Below, one piece after another: positions 1 to 6,883 of a stretch of DNA of 64,000 nucleotides. Position 1 is the stretch's first letter, and each line of letters starts with the position of its first letter. The notes beneath the pieces were generated by a model. That model was not told where the DNA came from, did no database searches, and was given only the letters and a program-made list of their open reading frames with translations. Origin of the DNA: Pseudomonadota bacterium (GTDB taxonomy: Bacteria > Pseudomonadota > Gammaproteobacteria > Steroidobacterales > Steroidobacteraceae); contig JAJYDK010000017.1 of assembly GCA_021777555.1 (NCBI GenBank), positions 1 to 64,000 on the forward strand. Direction: 5' to 3'. The position numbers and the translations under genes were made by a program.

Positions 1-134
1 AGCGTCGCGCCCCTCTTCGTAGCCAGCGCCTGCAATAAGGCGGTCTTGCCGGATCGAGGCTCCCCGATGAGCAAGACGAGCTTGCTTTGCAAGGCCACGA
101 CTTCCTCGAGTAGTCGCTCCAGCTTCTCAAGCAT
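1..134 (-). CDS. brxF: BrxF-like P-loop protein of a type 3 BREX-like locus (5' part only)
   Basis: Only the first 44 codons are inside the window; the gene continues past base 1. The ATG at 134 is preceded by an AGGAG-type ribosome binding site. The protein starts with a short charged helix (residues 1-18) followed by a hydrophobic strand and a Walker A motif GEPRSGKT (residues 24-31), then a helix. A small protein opening with a helix and an immediate P-loop matches BrxF, the small ATPase that begins type 3 BREX phage-defence operons. A short HTH gene 72 bases upstream on the same strand fits that organisation. Only a fragment is visible, so another small AAA-type ATPase cannot be excluded. 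BrxC, PglX, helicase and PglZ genes would be expected further to the left, outside this window. Confidence 0.55.
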   Translation of the reverse strand, partial: MLEKLERLLEEVVALQSKLVLLIGEPRSGKTALLQALATKRGAT

Positions 135-206
135 CCCTCTTTCTCCTGCGACTCCCCATTCGCTGCGCACCGATCGTGGGCGGGGCGCTAGATCTACCCG
201 TGGTGC

Positions 207-434
207 TCACTTTTCGCCTCTCCGCGACGGCTCGTTGTCGGAGTGCCCCACGATCGACTGCTGCTTGATCCACACGTCGATGTCGGTCCGCGAGAATCGC
301 CAGGCTCCTCCTACCTTGAACGCGGGGATCTTCTTTGCCCCCGCGAGCCGGTAGATCGTTCGCTCGGTGACCTTCAGGTATGCGGCCACCTCCCGGATGG
401 TCAGAATTCCGCTCTCGCCGGTGCTGGTGGCCAT
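207..434 (-). CDS. Small excisionase/MerR-type HTH DNA-binding protein
   Basis: A 75-residue protein that is mostly one winged-helix domain of the excisionase family (residues about 10-60). It contains the typical LTIREVAAYLKVTERTIYRL helix-turn-helix, followed by the KIPAFKVGGAWRF wing and a DIDVWI helix. I chose the ATG at 434. Starts upstream would add residues unlike the family. It lies 72 bases upstream of the BrxF-like gene on the same strand and probably forms an operon with it, either as transcriptional regulator of the defence locus or as a recombination directionality factor. Upstream GTGCAA direct repeats could be its operator. The domain assignment is firm and the role is inferred from position. 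Confidence 0.8.
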   Translation of the reverse strand: MATSTGESGILTIREVAAYLKVTERTIYRLAGAKKIPAFKVGGAWRFSRTDIDVWIKQQSIVGHSDNEPSRRGEK

Positions 435-469
435 GGCTTGTACCGTCCGAGGTGATTCTCTGCAGGATG

Positions 470-495
470 GTGCAAAATTTTCAACATTTGTGCAA
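470..495. promoter_or_regulatory. Direct repeats upstream of the HTH gene (possible operator)
   Basis: Two copies of GTGCAA start exactly 20 bases apart (470-475 and 490-495) in an A/T-rich stretch 36-61 bases upstream of the HTH start codon. Two helical turns of spacing suits a dimeric binding site near the promoter of the HTH/BrxF-like transcript. Otherwise the 435-665 gap between the HTH gene and the DUF6471 gene shows no open frame I would call a gene. Confidence 0.3.
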
Positions 496-665
496 TCCGG
501 GACGAAGATGGACAAAATCTGCTAGGACGCTGGCCTTATCAGTTGATCCGGACTCGGTCGATCCCAGAGCTAAATTTCTGAAGGGCAGGGCGGCAGGAGC
601 TGCACCTCGTCGAGTAAGAGCGGCTCTGGCTCGGTCGCCCCTTTCGATCGAACGGGTCGGCGAAC

Positions 666-1031
666 TCAGGTCCTGATGCGTGATTGGACGGGCGGTGGAT
701 CGACCGCGGTCACGTCGAGCGAGCGGACCCCCATCGCCCGCAGAACCTGGAGCGCGAAGCTAAAGCTGAAGGTACCACGCGAAATGCGGCTGATCAGGTT
801 CCGCTCAGTGACGGCGAAATCGAGCGGCGGACCGGACTGTGTCTCGAGGAGCTGGACCAGCTGCTTATAGCTGATGTCGCGCCGTTCCATTTCGCTGCGG
901 ATGATCCTGCGGGCCTCGTCGTCCCAGATCGAGCGGTCGGTACGGACACGTGGGTGCGAGCGGCTGGGGTCCGTTGGTTCAAAGCGGCCTTTCCGGCCCG
1001 GTAGCGAGCTTCGGCGCTGCGGCATACGCAT
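666..1031 (-). CDS. DUF6471 domain protein
   Basis: A 121-residue basic protein. After an Arg-rich disordered N-terminus (residues 1-35), residues about 36-105 match the DUF6471 pattern: a W-D-D-E-A-R-R-I-I-R helix, a KQLVQLLE helix, an E-R-N-L-x-x-R-I-S-R-G-T-F-S-F segment and an LQVLRAMGV helix. The helical layout resembles a small HTH-like fold, but no function is established. The gene is divergent from the transposase, with about 120 bases between them, and is co-oriented with the HTH and BrxF-like genes. It may be element-borne cargo or a regulator of the transposition genes. An ATG at 1025 is an alternative start. No clear Shine-Dalgarno sequence is seen. Confidence 0.7.
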   Translation of the reverse strand: MRMPQRRSSLPGRKGRFEPTDPSRSHPRVRTDRSIWDDEARRIIRSEMERRDISYKQLVQLLETQSGPPLDFAVTERNLISRISRGTFSFSFALQVLRAMGVRSLDVTAVDPPPVQSRIRT

Positions 1032-1151
1032 AAGGTAGCGCAGAAATCACAAATTCAGCTTTAATGTCTCGTTTATACGGTGTAATATATTGAATGTGCG
1101 GTTACTGATTAAAAGATCCGCCAAGACTCACCGTGGACCATCCGGATTCGC
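1032..1151. promoter_or_regulatory. A/T-rich divergent promoter region between DUF6471 and transposase
   Basis: This 120-base gap is much richer in A/T (especially about 1050-1118) than its surroundings and separates two divergent genes, so it should hold both promoters. I see no well-spaced consensus hexamer pair and no clear transposon end repeat. Confidence 0.35.
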
Positions 1152-3902
1152 GTGCGCGCCATGCTTTCGCAACTCGAACTCAACGATCTGTTTGCCCGCC
1201 ACGGTATTCCCTCAGCCGGCCGAATTCTGATTCGCGAGGCCAGGGACGCGGGTCCGGCGCGTGAGATTCAGCGCCGCACCGACACGGTGCGCACCCGGTA
1301 CCAAAGCCGAAAGATGGACCGCCCTGTCCTCGCCGAAAGCCGAACAGTCGAACTGCCCGCGATCGTTCTCTATGAGAACGACGAGTCCGTCCTCGAGTAC
1401 TGGCCTCAGCCGTTCAAGATCGACCTGCTCATTGAGGGACTGAAAAACGGCCGCACCCGGACTCAGCATGTGCCGGACGCGCTGCTCATCACCGAGACCG
1501 GCTTCCGCGTCGAGGAGTGGCGCGAAGAGCAGCGGCTGCTCGAGGCTGCGCAAAAGAACCCGAAGCGGTTCTACAAGGACGATGCGGGGCGGTGGCACCA
1601 TGTGCCGGCGGAGGACTATTTGTCGGCCCTCAATATCGAGTACAGGCTCCGTTCCGCCGACGAGTTGCCCCGGATCTTCGTCGCCAACCTCGACTTCCTG
1701 GCAGATTTCGCTCGCGAGGATGCGCCACCTGTGCCGGATGACGTCGCGAGGGCCATCAGAACGGTCGTCCATGAGAAGCGGATCGTTCCGCATCTCGCCC
1801 TCGTGCACGAGCACGGTTTCAAGGCTGACCAGGTATTCCAGCTCGTGCTCGCGGGAGAAATCTACGCGAATCTCCACGCTCAGCGGCTGGACCGAGTGGA
1901 GGAGTTGCTGCTGTTTCGCAGCCAGACGATCTACCAGGCGCATGCCCTAACCGCCGCTGCCCCAGTCACGCCGGCGCCGCCGTGCGAGCTCGCGCTGCAC
2001 CCCGGTAGCCGGTTTACCTTCGACGGCCGCTCGCTGGAAATCGTTCTCGCGGGTGCAACGTCAGTCATCGCTCGCGCCGAGGACAAGAGCACCTGCACGC
2101 TGCCACTCGTGCTGGTCGAGCAGCTCTTCCGGGAGTCAGCGATCGAGGTTCCCGAGGATGCTCGCAGACGGACGGTGGAGTATGACGTGACCACGGTCGT
2201 CGCGAATGAGAAGGACCTCGACATCGCGATCAAGCGCCTCGAGGCCATCCGCCACCCGGAAGGCTCCGGAATCCCTGAGCGGACGCTTCGGCGCTACCGA
2301 CAGGTAATCAAGGGCGCGACGTCCGTGCAGGAGCAACTGAAGCTCCTTGCCCCGCGACGTAGCGGCAATACGAGGCGACGGCTGCCCCAGGCCGTGCTCG
2401 ACATCGCGCAGGAGATTGTCGATCAGCACCATAACCAGCCGAACCGGCAGCCGGTGTCCGCTACGTACGTGCAGTTCAAGGCGCGTTGCGAGGAGCGCGG
2501 ACTCGTGCCGATGTCCGAAAGCGGCTTCTACGTCTGGATCAAGGATCACGTGAACATCAAGGCTCGCGAGGGCCGACGAGCCGCTTATCAGCAGGCACCC
2601 ATCCCGCTGTGGTACGACCACGAACAGCCTGTGCACGGAGTGCGGCCCCACGCCGTCGTCTATATCGACCACACGACAGTGAACCAGCTGTGCCGTGGCA
2701 TGGAGATCGAGAACTTGGGCAAGCCGTTCCTCACGATCGCTTTCGATGGCGCGGTGGGCAAGGCGCGCGCAATGTACCTCAGCTACGACTCGCCGTCGGC
2801 GAACACCGTCCTGATGATTCTGCGCGACTACGTGCGCCGGAACGGGCGGTTGCCGGACACGATCGTCCTCGATAACGGCGCCGAGTTCCATTCCGCCGCC
2901 CTCAAGCGGTTTTGCGATCTGTTCCGCGTCAACATTCGGTGGCGCCGACGCTCGAAGCCCCGCGACTCGACGCTCGTTGAGCGGATGCTCGGCGTGACCG
3001 AAACCGAAGTGATCGCGGCGCAGGACGGCAATACGCGCTGCTTGAAGAATCCCAGAATGGTCAGCGCGGAGGTCCATCCCGAAAAATTCATCCGGTGGAC
3101 GCTCCCGGCACTGTACGGGAGCATCGAGCATTTCCTATTCGAAATTCACCCGGCCCGCGTGCATCCGCGCTTTGGCGTTTCGCCAAACGACCGTGAGAGC
3201 CGTCTCCTGGTTGAGCTTGGCTCCCGGGACCACGTGATCGTCCGGTACGACGAGACATTCCGACTGCTCACGGCGTCTCACTCGGGAAACAAGCCAACCC
3301 GCGCAGTGGATCGGCAGCGCGGTGTGTTCGTTGACGGCATGCATTACTGGCTCGAATGCCTCGCAAAGGCCAAGCCAAGCGAGAAAGTCGAAGTCCGCGT
3401 GGAAATGTGGTGCGCGCGTGTCGTCTACGTGTGCTTCCGCGGCGACTGGGTGATCGCACAGGCGCGCGATGGCGGGCGCCTCGACGGAAGATTCCGGCAT
3501 GAGTATGAGATCGCAAAGCGCACGGAGACTCGTGAGCGCCGCACGAGGGCGCAGCAGGCACGTCGTTCGTCCGCCGGTTCGCACCGAAAACAGGAGCTAT
3601 GGATCCCGGAGCGATGGGACCCGCGCCTGCGAGAACAGGCAGTTGAGGCGTACCACCTGTACTCTCGCCTCGGCATGACCGAGGCTTTTGCCGGTGCCCG
3701 CAGCACGCGGGCCGGCGATCTCGCATTGGCCGGCACCGCGGTCGCCGGCGCACCAAAGCAAGAGTCAACTGCCGGAAGAGCCTCGGCGAAGCCGCTTACC
3801 CAAGCGCCGGCAAATACACCGAAGTCAATGGACGTCACCGTCGCAGCACCTATGACTCCGGATTCCGACGTCCCGGAGGCTAAAAAGTATTCCTACTTCT
3901 GA
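1152..3902 (+). CDS. tniA: TnsA-TnsB-like fusion transposase (TniA family, DDE)
   Basis: A 916-residue transposase, far longer than a Tn5053-type TniA (about 560). Residues about 60-190 resemble the TnsA endonuclease domain: an E-rich LEYWPQP strand (E78/E82), HVPD with D109, and a NPKRFYKDD...W helix region. Where TnsA normally has the catalytic Lys (VEVK), this protein reads RVEEWREE (residues 119-126). An HTH region follows. The RNase-H-type DDE core has D506 (YIDHT), D574 (LDNGAEF) and E610 (LVERML), a D-35-E spacing typical of TnsB/TniA. A basic, low-complexity tail follows and may contact the ATPase. The start is GTG at 1152 or ATG at 1161; neither has a strong ribosome site. The protein should bind the element ends and join the 3' ends to target DNA. 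Confidence 0.88.
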   Translation: MRAMLSQLELNDLFARHGIPSAGRILIREARDAGPAREIQRRTDTVRTRYQSRKMDRPVLAESRTVELPAIVLYENDESVLEYWPQPFKIDLLIEGLKNGRTRTQHVPDALLITETGFRVEEWREEQRLLEAAQKNPKRFYKDDAGRWHHVPAEDYLSALNIEYRLRSADELPRIFVANLDFLADFAREDAPPVPDDVARAIRTVVHEKRIVPHLALVHEHGFKADQVFQLVLAGEIYANLHAQRLDRVEELLLFRSQTIYQAHALTAAAPVTPAPPCELALHPGSRFTFDGRSLEIVLAGATSVIARAEDKSTCTLPLVLVEQLFRESAIEVPEDARRRTVEYDVTTVVANEKDLDIAIKRLEAIRHPEGSGIPERTLRRYRQVIKGATSVQEQLKLLAPRRSGNTRRRLPQAVLDIAQEIVDQHHNQPNRQPVSATYVQFKARCEERGLVPMSESGFYVWIKDHVNIKAREGRRAAYQQAPIPLWYDHEQPVHGVRPHAVVYIDHTTVNQLCRGMEIENLGKPFLTIAFDGAVGKARAMYLSYDSPSANTVLMILRDYVRRNGRLPDTIVLDNGAEFHSAALKRFCDLFRVNIRWRRRSKPRDSTLVERMLGVTETEVIAAQDGNTRCLKNPRMVSAEVHPEKFIRWTLPALYGSIEHFLFEIHPARVHPRFGVSPNDRESRLLVELGSRDHVIVRYDETFRLLTASHSGNKPTRAVDRQRGVFVDGMHYWLECLAKAKPSEKVEVRVEMWCARVVYVCFRGDWVIAQARDGGRLDGRFRHEYEIAKRTETRERRTRAQQARRSSAGSHRKQELWIPERWDPRLREQAVEAYHLYSRLGMTEAFAGARSTRAGDLALAGTAVAGAPKQESTAGRASAKPLTQAPANTPKSMDVTVAAPMTPDSDVPEAKKYSYF

Positions 3903-3936
3903 GTGGGGCATTTGCCCATTCAGGAGTTCTGCGACT

Positions 3937-4983
3937 ATGAGTAATTTGCCTACGGCCCGCTGGGGAGCCCTAAACGACGCGCAGCGAGAGCTGCAGAAAG
4001 CGTTCCACGACGTGCGGGTACGCCACCCGAAGCTCGATGCCGTCCTGGAGCAGATCCATCCATTGCTGATGCCGCACAGCGAGTCAAACATCGTCTACAT
4101 CGTCGGCGCCACAGGGACCGGCAAGTCGACGCTCTCACGGTACGCGCTGAATCACTTCTACGACCAGTACGCGGATCTCGCGGCGAGCGACTTCTCGGCC
4201 ATCCCCGTAGTCAACGTCGAGGCCTACTGCGACGGCGACACTCGGCACGGATTCCGGGGCCTCTACGAGGATCTACGGACGGCACTGCAGGAGCCCGCGC
4301 CCGAGCGAAAGACGTTCATCGAGGAAGCCGACGGCCGCATGACCCTTCGTCCAACCAAGCGGATGACGATCCGGCAGCTGCGCAAACTCGTCGAGAAGGG
4401 ATTGAAGAACCGCCGCACCAAGGTGGTCGTGATCGACGAGGCGTACCACCTGCTGAAGTTCGCAAAGGGCTCGGCGGTAATGGACACGCTGAAATCGCTG
4501 GCGAATACCACGGGGACGAAGCTCGTGCTCGTCGGTTCGTTCGACCTGTTTTCACTGGTTGACTCCCATGCCCAGGTCGCGCGCCGCTCCGCGTTCGTCC
4601 ACTTCGAACGGTATCGGCCCGAGCGCAGCGAGGACTGCACCGCCTTCATGAACATCGTACTCAGCCTCCAGGAGAAGTGGCCGCTCCCCGACGTGCCCAA
4701 TTTCGTCGCCATCTGGGACGAGCTGATGACAATCTCGCTCGGCTGCGTCGGCCTCCTGAAGAGCTTCTTGCTCGACACGCTCGCGATGCAGCTGCTGAAC
4801 GACGGGAGGTGGGACTACGGATTCCTCCAGCGCGCTGCGATGGCGAACAAGCTGCGCGCGATCATCGAGCAGGAGATTGTCAGCGGCGAGGAGGAGATCG
4901 AGGAAGCGCTCTACGGCCAGAGCACGTGGGATTCCAAGCGGATTGCAGAACTGCGTCGCCGCATGGAGGTGAGCCGTGCGTGA
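3937..4983 (+). CDS. tniB: TniB/TnsC-type transposition AAA+ ATPase
   Basis: A 348-residue AAA+ ATPase with Walker A GATGTGKS (residues 57-64) and Walker B VVVIDEA (D167/E168), followed by sensor-like LANTTGTKLVLVGS and VARRSAFVHFERY segments typical of TnsC/TniB. In Tn7-like systems this protein links the target selector (TniQ/TnsD) to the transposase. It starts at ATG 3937 behind AGGAG, 34 bases after the transposase, and overlaps the tniQ start by 8 bases, so the three genes form one translationally coupled operon. Confidence 0.9.
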   Translation: MSNLPTARWGALNDAQRELQKAFHDVRVRHPKLDAVLEQIHPLLMPHSESNIVYIVGATGTGKSTLSRYALNHFYDQYADLAASDFSAIPVVNVEAYCDGDTRHGFRGLYEDLRTALQEPAPERKTFIEEADGRMTLRPTKRMTIRQLRKLVEKGLKNRRTKVVVIDEAYHLLKFAKGSAVMDTLKSLANTTGTKLVLVGSFDLFSLVDSHAQVARRSAFVHFERYRPERSEDCTAFMNIVLSLQEKWPLPDVPNFVAIWDELMTISLGCVGLLKSFLLDTLAMQLLNDGRWDYGFLQRAAMANKLRAIIEQEIVSGEEEIEEALYGQSTWDSKRIAELRRRMEVSRA

Positions 4984-6301
4984 TGCCAGCCGCTCCATCT
5001 TCTATGGGCTACCGCTCATGGGTGTGGGTACACCCGAAGTCGAGAGCCTGCGCAGCTACCTCCTTCGGCTCGCGGCCGAGCACTCGATGATTCCGCGTGA
5101 GCTGGTTGTGACGGTTGCATCGCGGCAGGCTCACTACCGTCCCGACGCCAATCTGAACGTCATCTGGCGAGGCTTTCCGGTCTCCGGAACCAGTGATCGC
5201 GCAGAGCGCCTCGCGACGATGCTCTCCGAGGCGACCGGCGTGGACCTCGTTCCGGCTACGCTCGCCCGCTTTCGGCAAGTGATTTCTGCGCGTCGCCTGT
5301 GCCACGCGCAGACCTCGCGCTACTGCCCAGAGTGTGTACGCCGGCGGGTCGAAGATACCCACGTGCACGCGCCCCTGCTCTGGGAGCTGCAGGTTGTGAA
5401 TGCGTGCCCGGTGCACGGCAGTCGTCTGCGGTCCGCGGCGGAATGCGGTGCCCCGCCGTCGGTACGGCTGCCCGTCAACCGCCGCGTCTCACTCCCGGGC
5501 GTCTGTGGCCAATGCGGGAGCATCGGGTTCCGGTGCACCGGCGCGAGCGATCTCGCGGGGGAGCGAGACCTCTGGGTTGCGGACCAGGCAGGCAAGCTTC
5601 TGGCTCTCTCCCCTGCGGAGAGCACGTCGCTCACTCGAGAGATGCTCACCGCCGGAATCCGTGAGGTGGTGAACATGCGGTTCGACGGCCAGCCTGTACG
5701 GGCCGCGACTCAGGCACGGTTAGCACGCGCCACCGTACTTCACTGGCTCGAGGGAATGGAGGCGGTGGAACTTGCAGCTCTGTTCGAGCTGGCCCACCTT
5801 GCCGCAGCGGACGTCTCCGAGCTGTTCCGCGGCCGGTACGTAGAGGTCGGCCCCGCCCCAGACCTGCCCGTGAGCAGCGGAATTACGCGGATCCTCCCGC
5901 CTCGTTACGAACGACACGACTGGACATCCGTCCAGGCCGCACTGTTCGATGCGGCCAATGACAACCGCATGCCAAGCCTGCTTTCCGTCCTCGCGCCTTT
6001 CGGCATTGACGGCTCAGATGCTCGTCGCCGGTATCCGACCGAGTGCCATACGGTGGCGAGGCGGCACGATGCCTCCCGGCGCAAGCGGTGGCAGCAGGTT
6101 TACGATTCGTCGTACGCCGCGTTTTCCGCTGCAGCCGACGACCTGCGGCGCCGCGGTGTCGAGCCGACCCGCGCGCGTATTCAGGAAGCCGCGAACCTCT
6201 GCTGCTTTGGCAGTGGACGCAGCATCTACCGATCGCGGGCGCTCGAGGATGTGCTCGCGGGTCGCAAATCGCGCACTGTGTCGCAAGCGTCGGGAACCTA
6301 A
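4976..6301 (+). CDS. tniQ: TniQ target-selection protein with zinc fingers
   Basis: A 441-residue TniQ-family protein starting at GTG 4976 inside the end of tniB. The N-terminal domain (residues about 10-170) has the family pattern: GLPLMGVGTPEVESLRSYLLRL reduced to an E-S-x-x-S/R-Y-L-x-R-L helix, then zinc ligands CPEC...C..H (RYCPEC, NACPVHGSRL). A second CGQC...RC pair lies at about residues 180-190. TniQ/TnsD proteins recognise the insertion site. The extended C-terminal half (residues 200-441) has further helical DNA-binding-like segments, which suits a TnsD-like site-specific selector. Its neighbour 420 bases downstream is a tRNA-Gln gene, an attractive candidate target. The family assignment is strong and the target is inferred. 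Confidence 0.88.
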   Translation: MRDASRSIFYGLPLMGVGTPEVESLRSYLLRLAAEHSMIPRELVVTVASRQAHYRPDANLNVIWRGFPVSGTSDRAERLATMLSEATGVDLVPATLARFRQVISARRLCHAQTSRYCPECVRRRVEDTHVHAPLLWELQVVNACPVHGSRLRSAAECGAPPSVRLPVNRRVSLPGVCGQCGSIGFRCTGASDLAGERDLWVADQAGKLLALSPAESTSLTREMLTAGIREVVNMRFDGQPVRAATQARLARATVLHWLEGMEAVELAALFELAHLAAADVSELFRGRYVEVGPAPDLPVSSGITRILPPRYERHDWTSVQAALFDAANDNRMPSLLSVLAPFGIDGSDARRRYPTECHTVARRHDASRRKRWQQVYDSSYAAFSAAADDLRRRGVEPTRARIQEAANLCCFGSGRSIYRSRALEDVLAGRKSRTVSQASGT

Positions 6302-6558
6302 CCCCCGACGAGGATGTTGCGGGCAATTTGCTGGCGGGGGACGGTGAGGAACAAGTAAACGAACCCATACCGGCGGCCCGGCCTCTTGCAAGGGGCGGGC
6401 TGCCAGCTCTGGCTCCCGGGGATCCGCGCTTTCGGATACCGCCGGTGCATCTACCCTCGTGGGGCCGGACCCCTCGTAAACCCTGTACTAATCGCGGCGC
6501 TTCGTCGCGCGTGGCTCTCGCTCCCCGTGAGAGCGCCAGATCCAGATCTCGACAAAGC

Positions 6559-6580
6559 GACGAGTCCCGATGGACTCGTC
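6559..6580. repeat. Perfect inverted repeat (9-bp arms, 4-base loop)
   Basis: GACGAGTCC at 6559-6567 and GGACTCGTC at 6572-6580 form a perfect hairpin with loop CGAT. There is no T-tract next to it, so it is not a standard terminator. Its role is unknown. It lies in the zone where the transposon end must be. Confidence 0.45.
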
Positions 6581-6648
6581 TCGTCGCACCTTCGGTCCAT
6601 GAACACTTGGCCGTGGTCGTTCCAGTATCGTCTGGCCGCCTTCCCATT

Positions 6649-6685
6649 CCAGCATCCAGTGGCCGTTCCGGCCACCGGATGCTGG
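6649..6685. repeat. Long inverted repeat (17-bp arms, 3-base loop)
   Basis: Arms 6649-6665 and 6669-6685 pair at 16 of 17 positions around a TTC loop (one A/C mismatch). It lies directly before the second hairpin (6693-6718) and 41 bases from the tRNA 3' end. It could be a REP-like palindrome, part of a tandem terminator, or a feature recognised by the element. Confidence 0.55.
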
Positions 6686-6692
6686 AAACGAC

Positions 6693-6726
6693 AGAGGCCC
6701 ACCTCACGGTGGGCCTCTTTCGTTTT
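6693..6726 (+). terminator. Rho-independent terminator hairpin beside tRNA-Gln
   Basis: AGAGGCCCACC (6693-6703), loop TCAC, GGTGGGCCTCT (6708-6718), then TTCGTTTT on the + strand. The T-rich tail favours rightward termination (readthrough from the transposon side). The stem could also end the leftward tRNA transcript, although its tail in that direction is weak. Confidence 0.75.
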
Positions 6727-6799
6727 GGCTGGGGGACTAGGATTCGAACCTAGGTAAACGGAGTCAGAGTCCGTTGTCCTACCACTAGACGATCCCCCA
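6726..6799 (-). tRNA. tRNA-Gln (anticodon CTG)
   Basis: Read on the minus strand this gives a 74-base cloverleaf. The acceptor stem TGGGGGA (6799-6793) pairs with TCCCCCA (6736-6730), followed by discriminator G and an encoded CCA (6728-6726). The anticodon arm ACGGA-CTCTGAC-TCCGT carries anticodon CTG, and the T-arm contains GGTTCGAATCC. The gene is intact, with its 3' end facing the Tn7-like element. It lies downstream of rpsI on the same strand and may be cotranscribed with rplM-rpsI or use its own promoter in the 84-base gap. Confidence 0.95.
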
Positions 6800-6883
6800 A
6801 AAACCTGGCGGGACCTGGGGCCGGGCACAGGTCCGAGCTCCGATAATTGAAGCCCGAGCCTGCGCCGGCTGCAAGATCCTCGG

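Follow-up and report, generated by a model that had tools for sequence, protein, structure and literature searches.

The tRNA-proximal end of a probable Tn7-like transposon behind tRNA-Gln in a Steroidobacteraceae genome, with a cargo apparently led by brxF

The transposon Tn7 moves by means of its TnsABCDE proteins and inserts just past a conserved gene, glmS; it is bounded by TGT...ACA tips and by arrays of TnsB sites. Here we analyze a window of 64,000 nucleotides from a gammaproteobacterium of the family Steroidobacteraceae (assembly GCA_021777555.1, 4.0 Mb in 117 contigs), consisting of bases 1-64000 of contig JAJYDK010000017.1 (72,011 bases, here C75), and find it likely that window positions 1-6693 belong to a Tn7-like transposon, of which they form the end nearest the tRNA; the transposon inserts behind a tRNA-Gln gene and would carry a cargo led by brxF, a gene of the bacteriophage exclusion (BREX) systems. 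The sequence evidence consists of a fused TnsA-TnsB transposase with TniB and TniQ, TnsB-type repeats at both ends of the element, a matching pair of tips, a repeated target sequence, a sister element that is complete, and relatives in which the site is empty. Since base 1 of the window is also the end of C75, the left side can be read no further. The features of this end are as follows.

1..134, minus strand: putative 5' part of brxF, 44 codons running off the contig end; P-loop; BrxF profiles match
207..434, minus strand, ATG at 434 (open reading frame, ORF, open to TTG 515): helix-turn-helix (HTH) regulator of the HTH_17 family before brxF; Pfam HTH_17 67.7 bits, NCBIfam MADS1 81.9 bits
666..1031, minus strand: DUF6471 gene, divergent from tnsAB; Pfam 71 bits
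1152..3902, plus strand, likely start ATG 1161: tnsAB, TnsA-TnsB fusion transposase, 916 aa; matches PDB 9bw1_M, DDE residues kept
3937..4983, plus strand: tniB/tnsC-type AAA ATPase; Pfam TniB 59.6 bits
4976..6301, plus strand: tniQ/tnsD-type target selector, 441 aa; Pfam TniQ 61.1 bits, matches PDB 8v32_J
6595..6687: four TnsB-type 19-mers (6595-, 6620-, 6647-, 6669+), about CGGCCAnnnGATGCTGGAA; predicted TnsB binding
6690..6693, minus strand: element tip, 5'-TGTC read away from the tRNA; TGTC also tips the sister element
6694..6699: target repeat GAGGCC (GGCCTC on the tRNA strand), with a second copy at the far end, G000:C24:480-485
6694..6717, minus strand: terminator-like hairpin behind tRNA-Gln, foldable after insertion
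6726..6799, minus strand: tRNA-Gln(CTG), intact, the attachment gene; ARAGORN, Rfam 65.5 bits

Read outward from the tRNA-Gln gene, the end of the tRNA is followed by 32 bp that contain the terminator-like hairpin, then by the tip TGTCGTTTCC and the four TnsB-type 19-mers. The initial annotation of this DNA had the transposition operon ending beside an intact tRNA-Gln: the tRNA is intact, and the end of the element is to be placed at 6693, behind the four 19-mers, not at 6301. The model of the repeat was built from 12 sites, so that finding these again is uninformative and solely its absence elsewhere informs. In 570,331 bases (many of them overlapping), matches of at least 20 bits occur solely at element ends at this tRNA-Gln, including one in the genome G020 described below, and five mononucleotide shuffles of the window give none; sites under 17 bits are inseparable from background. 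On the absence of matches of that strength elsewhere in these bases, the palindrome was rejected as a general genomic repeat.

The same annotation had proposed a Tn7-like element with the tRNA-Gln as its docking site, to be checked by its other end, its target duplication, and relatives that lack the insertion; the other end, a direct repeat and relatives with an empty site have been found. The far end lies on contig C24 of the same genome, which starts within an Xre-type gene. Two strong TnsB-type repeats and two weak ones (14.3 and 16.7 bits) are found next, and the element ends with TCCACA at 479; after it come GGCCTCGTCG, a short piece of chromosome, and then rpe and purC. Together, the tips of the window end and the C24 end form a matching TGT...ACA pair, with GGCCTC repeated at the two ends. 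In G014, a genome of the same genus, the site is empty: the tRNA-Gln is followed by the uninterrupted hairpin GGTGGGCCTCGTCG, then by the piece of chromosome found on C24 and rpe. A second genome of the genus, G007, is the empty counterpart of the sister site, and its flank is likewise uninterrupted. The predicted folding energy of the hairpin is -30.7 kcal/mol in the window versus -28.6 in the empty G014 site, and -26.6 in the sister versus -26.9 in the empty G007 site. The insertion lies 32 bp past the tRNA in the window, 30 bp in the sister, and 29 bp in a more distant relative in genome G567 (where the tRNA is inferred). That such elements enter a terminator hairpin as a rule finds no support in G567, whose 29 bp flank lacks such a hairpin and folds no better than shuffles (z +1.30).

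Side observations were made on the chromosome around these sites. In G014 the 3' end of tRNA-Gln occurs twice, each time with the hairpin, the second copy lying 165 bp behind the first (L031 401-650); such a copy is also present on C24 (L029 480-660), and the arrangement resembles the trace of an older integration or of a tandem duplication. Several genomes (L031, L029, L025, L011) have in common a similar stretch, GGATGAGAACCG...TCGACAAA, after the hairpin at tRNA-Gln; one piece of it was searched for in the window and was not found. Finally, rpe comes after the tRNA-Gln in the window genome and G014 and after crp in the sister genome (C75 6726-9365, L031, L044 15582-19195); the block tRNA-rpsI-rplM-coq7-crp looks inverted between species.

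The sister element was found by scanning genome contigs with two short peptide patterns, a procedure that would miss distant relatives; it yielded one confirmed relative of TnsAB (L044, JAKBWB010000041.1, 90% identical), and a scan of viral contigs with two such patterns, which would miss distant relatives as well, found no relative. The sister genome, G426 (evidently the same as G438), belongs to the genus of the window, and its element is complete: it spans 19,968 bp (C65 15811-35778), is inserted at the same tRNA-Gln, and reads ...CCACA and then GGCCTCGACG on its far side. Window and sister are 90% identical in TnsAB, 91% in TniB, 79% in TniQ, 85% in DUF6471, and 89% in the Xre-type protein (over the 65 residues seen). 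The sister cargo is an Hma defence system (HmaA 520 bits, HmaB 387 bits, HmaC 157 bits) together with an NYN gene. As a side observation, a trypsin-like ORF of the sister (L050 4665-6056) spans the far-end repeats and crosses the element end into the chromosome.

The arrangement first noted, in which a BrxF-like P-loop gene, an HTH gene and a DUF6471 gene are divergent from a Tn7-like operon, is confirmed in all its parts; DUF6471, which had been grouped with the defence genes, belongs with the transposase instead. The gene is divergent from TnsAB in the window, in the sister, and in G567 (where it is 39% identical over 69 residues), and since it holds its place next to TnsAB in elements that carry Hma or type I restriction instead, we regard it as part of the transposon core; its staying there through the change of cargo also led us to reject it as a part of BREX. 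On plasmids of Roseomonas and Legionella geestiana it adjoins neither BREX nor TnsAB (8 kb stretches; two of the four plasmid matches were examined). DUF6471 at one end and the Xre-type gene at the other are element-borne, and the content between them differs in relatives.

The fused transposase aligns over residues 14-806 with the PDB chain 9bw1_M (labelled 'Integrase'; E 1.1e-105). In Pfam it is weakly recognized (rve at E 0.0016, under the cut-off), and no TnsA model matched in the Pfam scan. The catalytic triad of the TnsB part is intact (D506, D574, E610). Among the matches listed, cyanobacterial plasmid proteins are only 28-30% identical to TnsAB. TniQ aligns over residues 6-411 of its 441 with PDB 8v32_J, labelled TnsD (E 2.1e-16; TnsD is also present in 9bw1), and with the shorter TniQ over 5-197 only.

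BREX systems mark host DNA by methylation and block phage replication. Judged from its sequence, the gene cut off at the left edge of the window is in all probability brxF: it scores 33.6 bits with NCBIfam BREX_3_BrxF, whose curated cut-off of 50 applies to the whole protein, and 28.2 bits with the PADLOC BrxF profile. We compared the fragment with 96 loci, among them ten distinct BrxF loci (seven from genomes of the class, found with a hidden Markov model, and three from plasmids). Its 44 residues match seven of these ten at E ≤ 1.3e-5. Six brxF genes are 51-71% identical over 41-43 residues (E ≤ 2.5e-9; 63-71% in three genomes, 51-56% on three plasmids) and align with the fragment from residue 1; the seventh match, in G319, is 40% identical (E 1.3e-5), and the best match outside BrxF has E 0.017. 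Within the stretches examined downstream of the six close genes, DUF6079 is encoded at all six, a methyltransferase and a helicase at five, and PglZ at four. Across the class, BrxF was found in 7 of 369 genomes at E 1e-8; across the 217 genomes of the family, none was found at E 1e-10, a threshold so strict that the window's own fragment is missed as well. The cargo, of which 44 codons of brxF are seen, is most likely a BREX-3 system. The HTH gene before brxF is of a general regulator type. Of the six genome loci, only G319 has a distant relative (28%) directly before brxF, ending 27 bases before the brxF match; the other five, and the three plasmid loci, have other or no clear regulators there.

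Several observations weigh against the conclusion that a Tn7-like element with a brxF-led cargo occupies this site. Its two ends lie on two contigs and are linked through the sister and the empty site. At the far end of the sister, the repeats reach 12-16 bits, which background hits in the same scan also reach; that end is placed by its tip and by the match of its flank to G007. The direct repeat, GGCCTC, has 6 bp in the pair of ends from the window genome, whereas that of the sister has 4 bp (5 if a T is shared), with no clean 5 bp repeat. Three of the ten BrxF loci match the fragment poorly (G257 at E 0.068; G120 and G249 unlisted up to E 10), and in a search of all plasmids (7.3 billion bases) three annotated brxF genes lead at E 0.01, 0.2 and 0.6, with cyanobacterial exonuclease-type genes reaching E 0.5; our confidence is slightly reduced, and a cargo other than BREX-3 is made slightly more probable, because three BrxF loci, not two, are unmatched and because the plasmid-wide search separates brxF poorly. 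PglZ was not found in the window's own genome (the control search gave matches in 10 of 14 genomes, 3 of which exceeded the cut-off), nor was a gene of the DUF6079/BrxC type, in a search that had no positive control. Of the initial proposal of a BREX-3 cargo, then, the brxF at the edge stands, and PglZ and DUF6079 were not found in the bin; the rest of BrxF was also searched for in the genome and nothing was found. Absence of the cargo contig from the genome bin may explain the missing PglZ and DUF6079. Lastly, of the TnsA active-site residues, Asp and Glu are kept and Lys is replaced by Arg at about residue 124.

The TnsA substitution raises the question of whether the element is immobile, or moves only replicatively, its TnsA part having lost a catalytic residue. 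The TnsA active site is formed by Asp, Glu and Lys, and the aligned position of the last holds Lys in Gloeothece and 9bw1 (ECK), in one Caballeronia copy (EWK) and in G528 (QVK). The window, the sister and G567 have Arg there, whereas G324 has Thr and the second Caballeronia copy Val; the TnsAB of G567 is in addition in broken frames. However, Arg also occurs in elements whose TnsAB has diverged by 10% (sister) and by 56-68%, depending on the piece (G567), and being common to diverged elements it argues against fresh decay of the window copy; the TnsB triad is intact, and the Lys position of TnsA varies among nucleases of that fold. We therefore regard a loss of mobility as possible but unlikely.

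Rather unlikely, too, is that the gene is brxF-like and the cargo something other than BREX-3, either a methylation-type system (such as MADS, or one related to BREX) or an orphan remnant. The missing PglZ and DUF6079 and the three poorly matching BrxF loci would fit such a cargo, as would the HTH gene, which exceeds the MADS1 cut-off of 80 by 1.9 bits and whose relatives at the three plasmid loci examined (of 1290 matching records) have SNF2-methyltransferase or DUF499-SIR2-DUF1156 operons behind them. On the other side, mad8 reaches only 15.3 bits on the P-loop fragment versus 28.2 bits for BrxF, and the fragment can be aligned over 41-43 residues, beginning at its first, with six brxF genes that are all followed by DUF6079. 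The HTH gene itself was rejected as a marker of MADS or of BREX, being too general and preceding other defence-type operons.

It is highly improbable that the defence genes are unrelated to the transposase and were brought next to it by a misassembly at the left end of C75: the contig stops 134 bp into the brxF-like gene, and contig ends in bins are error-prone, yet the sister contig has the identical order DUF6471-TnsAB-TniB-TniQ-tRNA and likewise carries defence genes at the matching place. RNA guidance, as in CRISPR-associated transposons (CASTs) with fused TnsAB, is suggested by the closest solved relative of TnsAB, 9bw1, which we take to belong to a type I-B2 CAST, but it is disfavoured to the point of being scarcely credible, since no CRISPR-type repeat array is found in window 1-6800 or the sister element stretches (the middle of the window's own element lies outside the sequence), a scan of eight proteins of the sister, namely TnsAB, DUF6471 and the products of six cargo genes (eight small ORFs of 62-163 aa lie outside this set), found no cas gene, and TniQ matches TnsD over residues 6-411 and the shorter TniQ over 5-197 only.

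The Tn7-like element with brxF at its cargo edge is well delimited. TniQ relatives (E ≤ 1e-5) occur in 5 of 217 family genomes, including its own, that of G438 alone being close (79%) and the others 25-30% identical; TnsAB relatives (E ≤ 1e-20) occur in 2 of 369 class genomes, one of them its own. DNA of window 1-1140 is matched in 15 of the 217 family genomes, again including its own. Its DUF6471 part is matched over at least 200 bases in three others (G438, G023 and G020), in all of them beside this tRNA-Gln; of the other eleven matches, eight lie in the HTH region (three of these of 43-53 bases) and three are of 23-25 bases. G020 has two strong TnsB-type sites and the DUF6471 piece directly behind the tRNA-Gln (L017 1-734), with no TniQ or TnsAB match in the genome searches, and in G023 the DUF6471 piece lies 1,464 bases from the tRNA-Gln (L086 149-360); both look like remains of the element. 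In the genus, four genomes have at this site either the element or what appears to be left of it. A TnsB-type end directly behind the tRNA was seen in one (G020) of 19 flanks read out of 55 matching relatives (L011-L028 and L031; L010 was dropped as its contig stops in the tRNA, and L032 repeats L011). The relative in G567 (L099 5000-5440) carries a type I restriction-modification cargo, and its tip, TGT, lies past a sequence inferred as the end of an intron-split tRNA (group I intron, 81 bits in Rfam); ARAGORN found no tRNA at this insertion site. A side observation concerns a Caballeronia plasmid that carries two TnsAB-TniB-TniQ sets about 14 kb apart (L041 1193-5876, 15001-19631), with a candidate defence gene, PDC-S06, between them.

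Several of these properties have precedents in the literature. Fused TnsAB elements with a tRNA-targeting TnsD, including ones whose targeting is not by CRISPR, have been described (PMC11406308), and a fused-TnsAB element homes 30-33 nt past the tRNA (PMC10293859), a distance matched by the 32 bp of the window and the 30 bp of the sister. BREX has been tabulated on 40 Tn7-like transposons, counted by BrxC, and sites downstream of tRNAs have been named safe sites (PMC8649781); for those 40, the available part of that source does not specify tRNA-Gln or fused TnsAB. These reports weaken the novelty first suggested for the combination of fused TnsA-TnsB, TniQ, tRNA-Gln and BREX-3. Our literature search, which did not extend to the main paper on the cyanobacterial relatives, returned no description of this element and no pairing of 'Tn7-like' with 'tRNA-Gln'.

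With the cyanobacterial CASTs of types I-B2 and I-D, and with those of their relatives that are not CRISPR systems, the element shares the TnsA-TnsB fusion, TnsC/TniB, TnsD/TniQ, and a position about 30 bp behind a tRNA (PMC11406308, PMC10293859). It differs from them in having no visible CRISPR-Cas, one TniQ gene seen, a proteobacterial host, tRNA-Gln as target, and DUF6471 beside tnsAB. Like Tn7, it has TGT...ACA tips, arrays of TnsB-type sites, and an insertion just past a conserved gene; unlike Tn7, its TnsA and TnsB are fused, its target is a tRNA gene and not glmS, and TnsE was not noticed. As in the Tn7-like transposons that carry BREX (PMC8649781), BREX would be the cargo, here recognized from brxF alone. 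BREX type 3 has six core components, including BrxF and BrxHII (PMC12839542), and as in that type brxF heads the cargo operon, behind a regulator; whereas the type comprises BrxC/DUF6079, a methyltransferase, BrxHII, PglZ and BrxA, the present system is known from the brxF fragment alone.

In the mechanism that we propose, the TnsD-type TniQ would recognize the end of the tRNA-Gln gene, TniB would hand the target to TnsAB, and TnsAB would join the element about 30 bp downstream, within the terminator-like hairpin, leaving the tRNA intact; the element so inserted would carry a defence operon whose first gene is brxF. In a more speculative and distinctly doubtful extension, the tRNA-Gln beside rpsI would be a dock for defence cassettes at which a fixed chassis (DUF6471-TnsAB-TniB-TniQ at one end, the Xre gene at the other) swaps operons, with DUF6471 regulating the transposase and the Arg-bearing TnsA giving partly replicative transposition.

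As the sister carries a different defence set at the same site, it seems that one set can be exchanged for another there, the site serving as their dock. Within one genus, a single attachment site is seen in empty, occupied and apparently decayed states, and its two occupied states combine near-identical transposition genes with different neighbouring cargo, which makes it a clean natural case of defence-gene exchange by Tn7-like elements. For the CASTs with fused TnsAB it offers a counterpart from a proteobacterium in which no CRISPR is visible; with it one can usefully ask how tRNA genes are read by proteins of the TnsD type, and whether DUF6471 participates.

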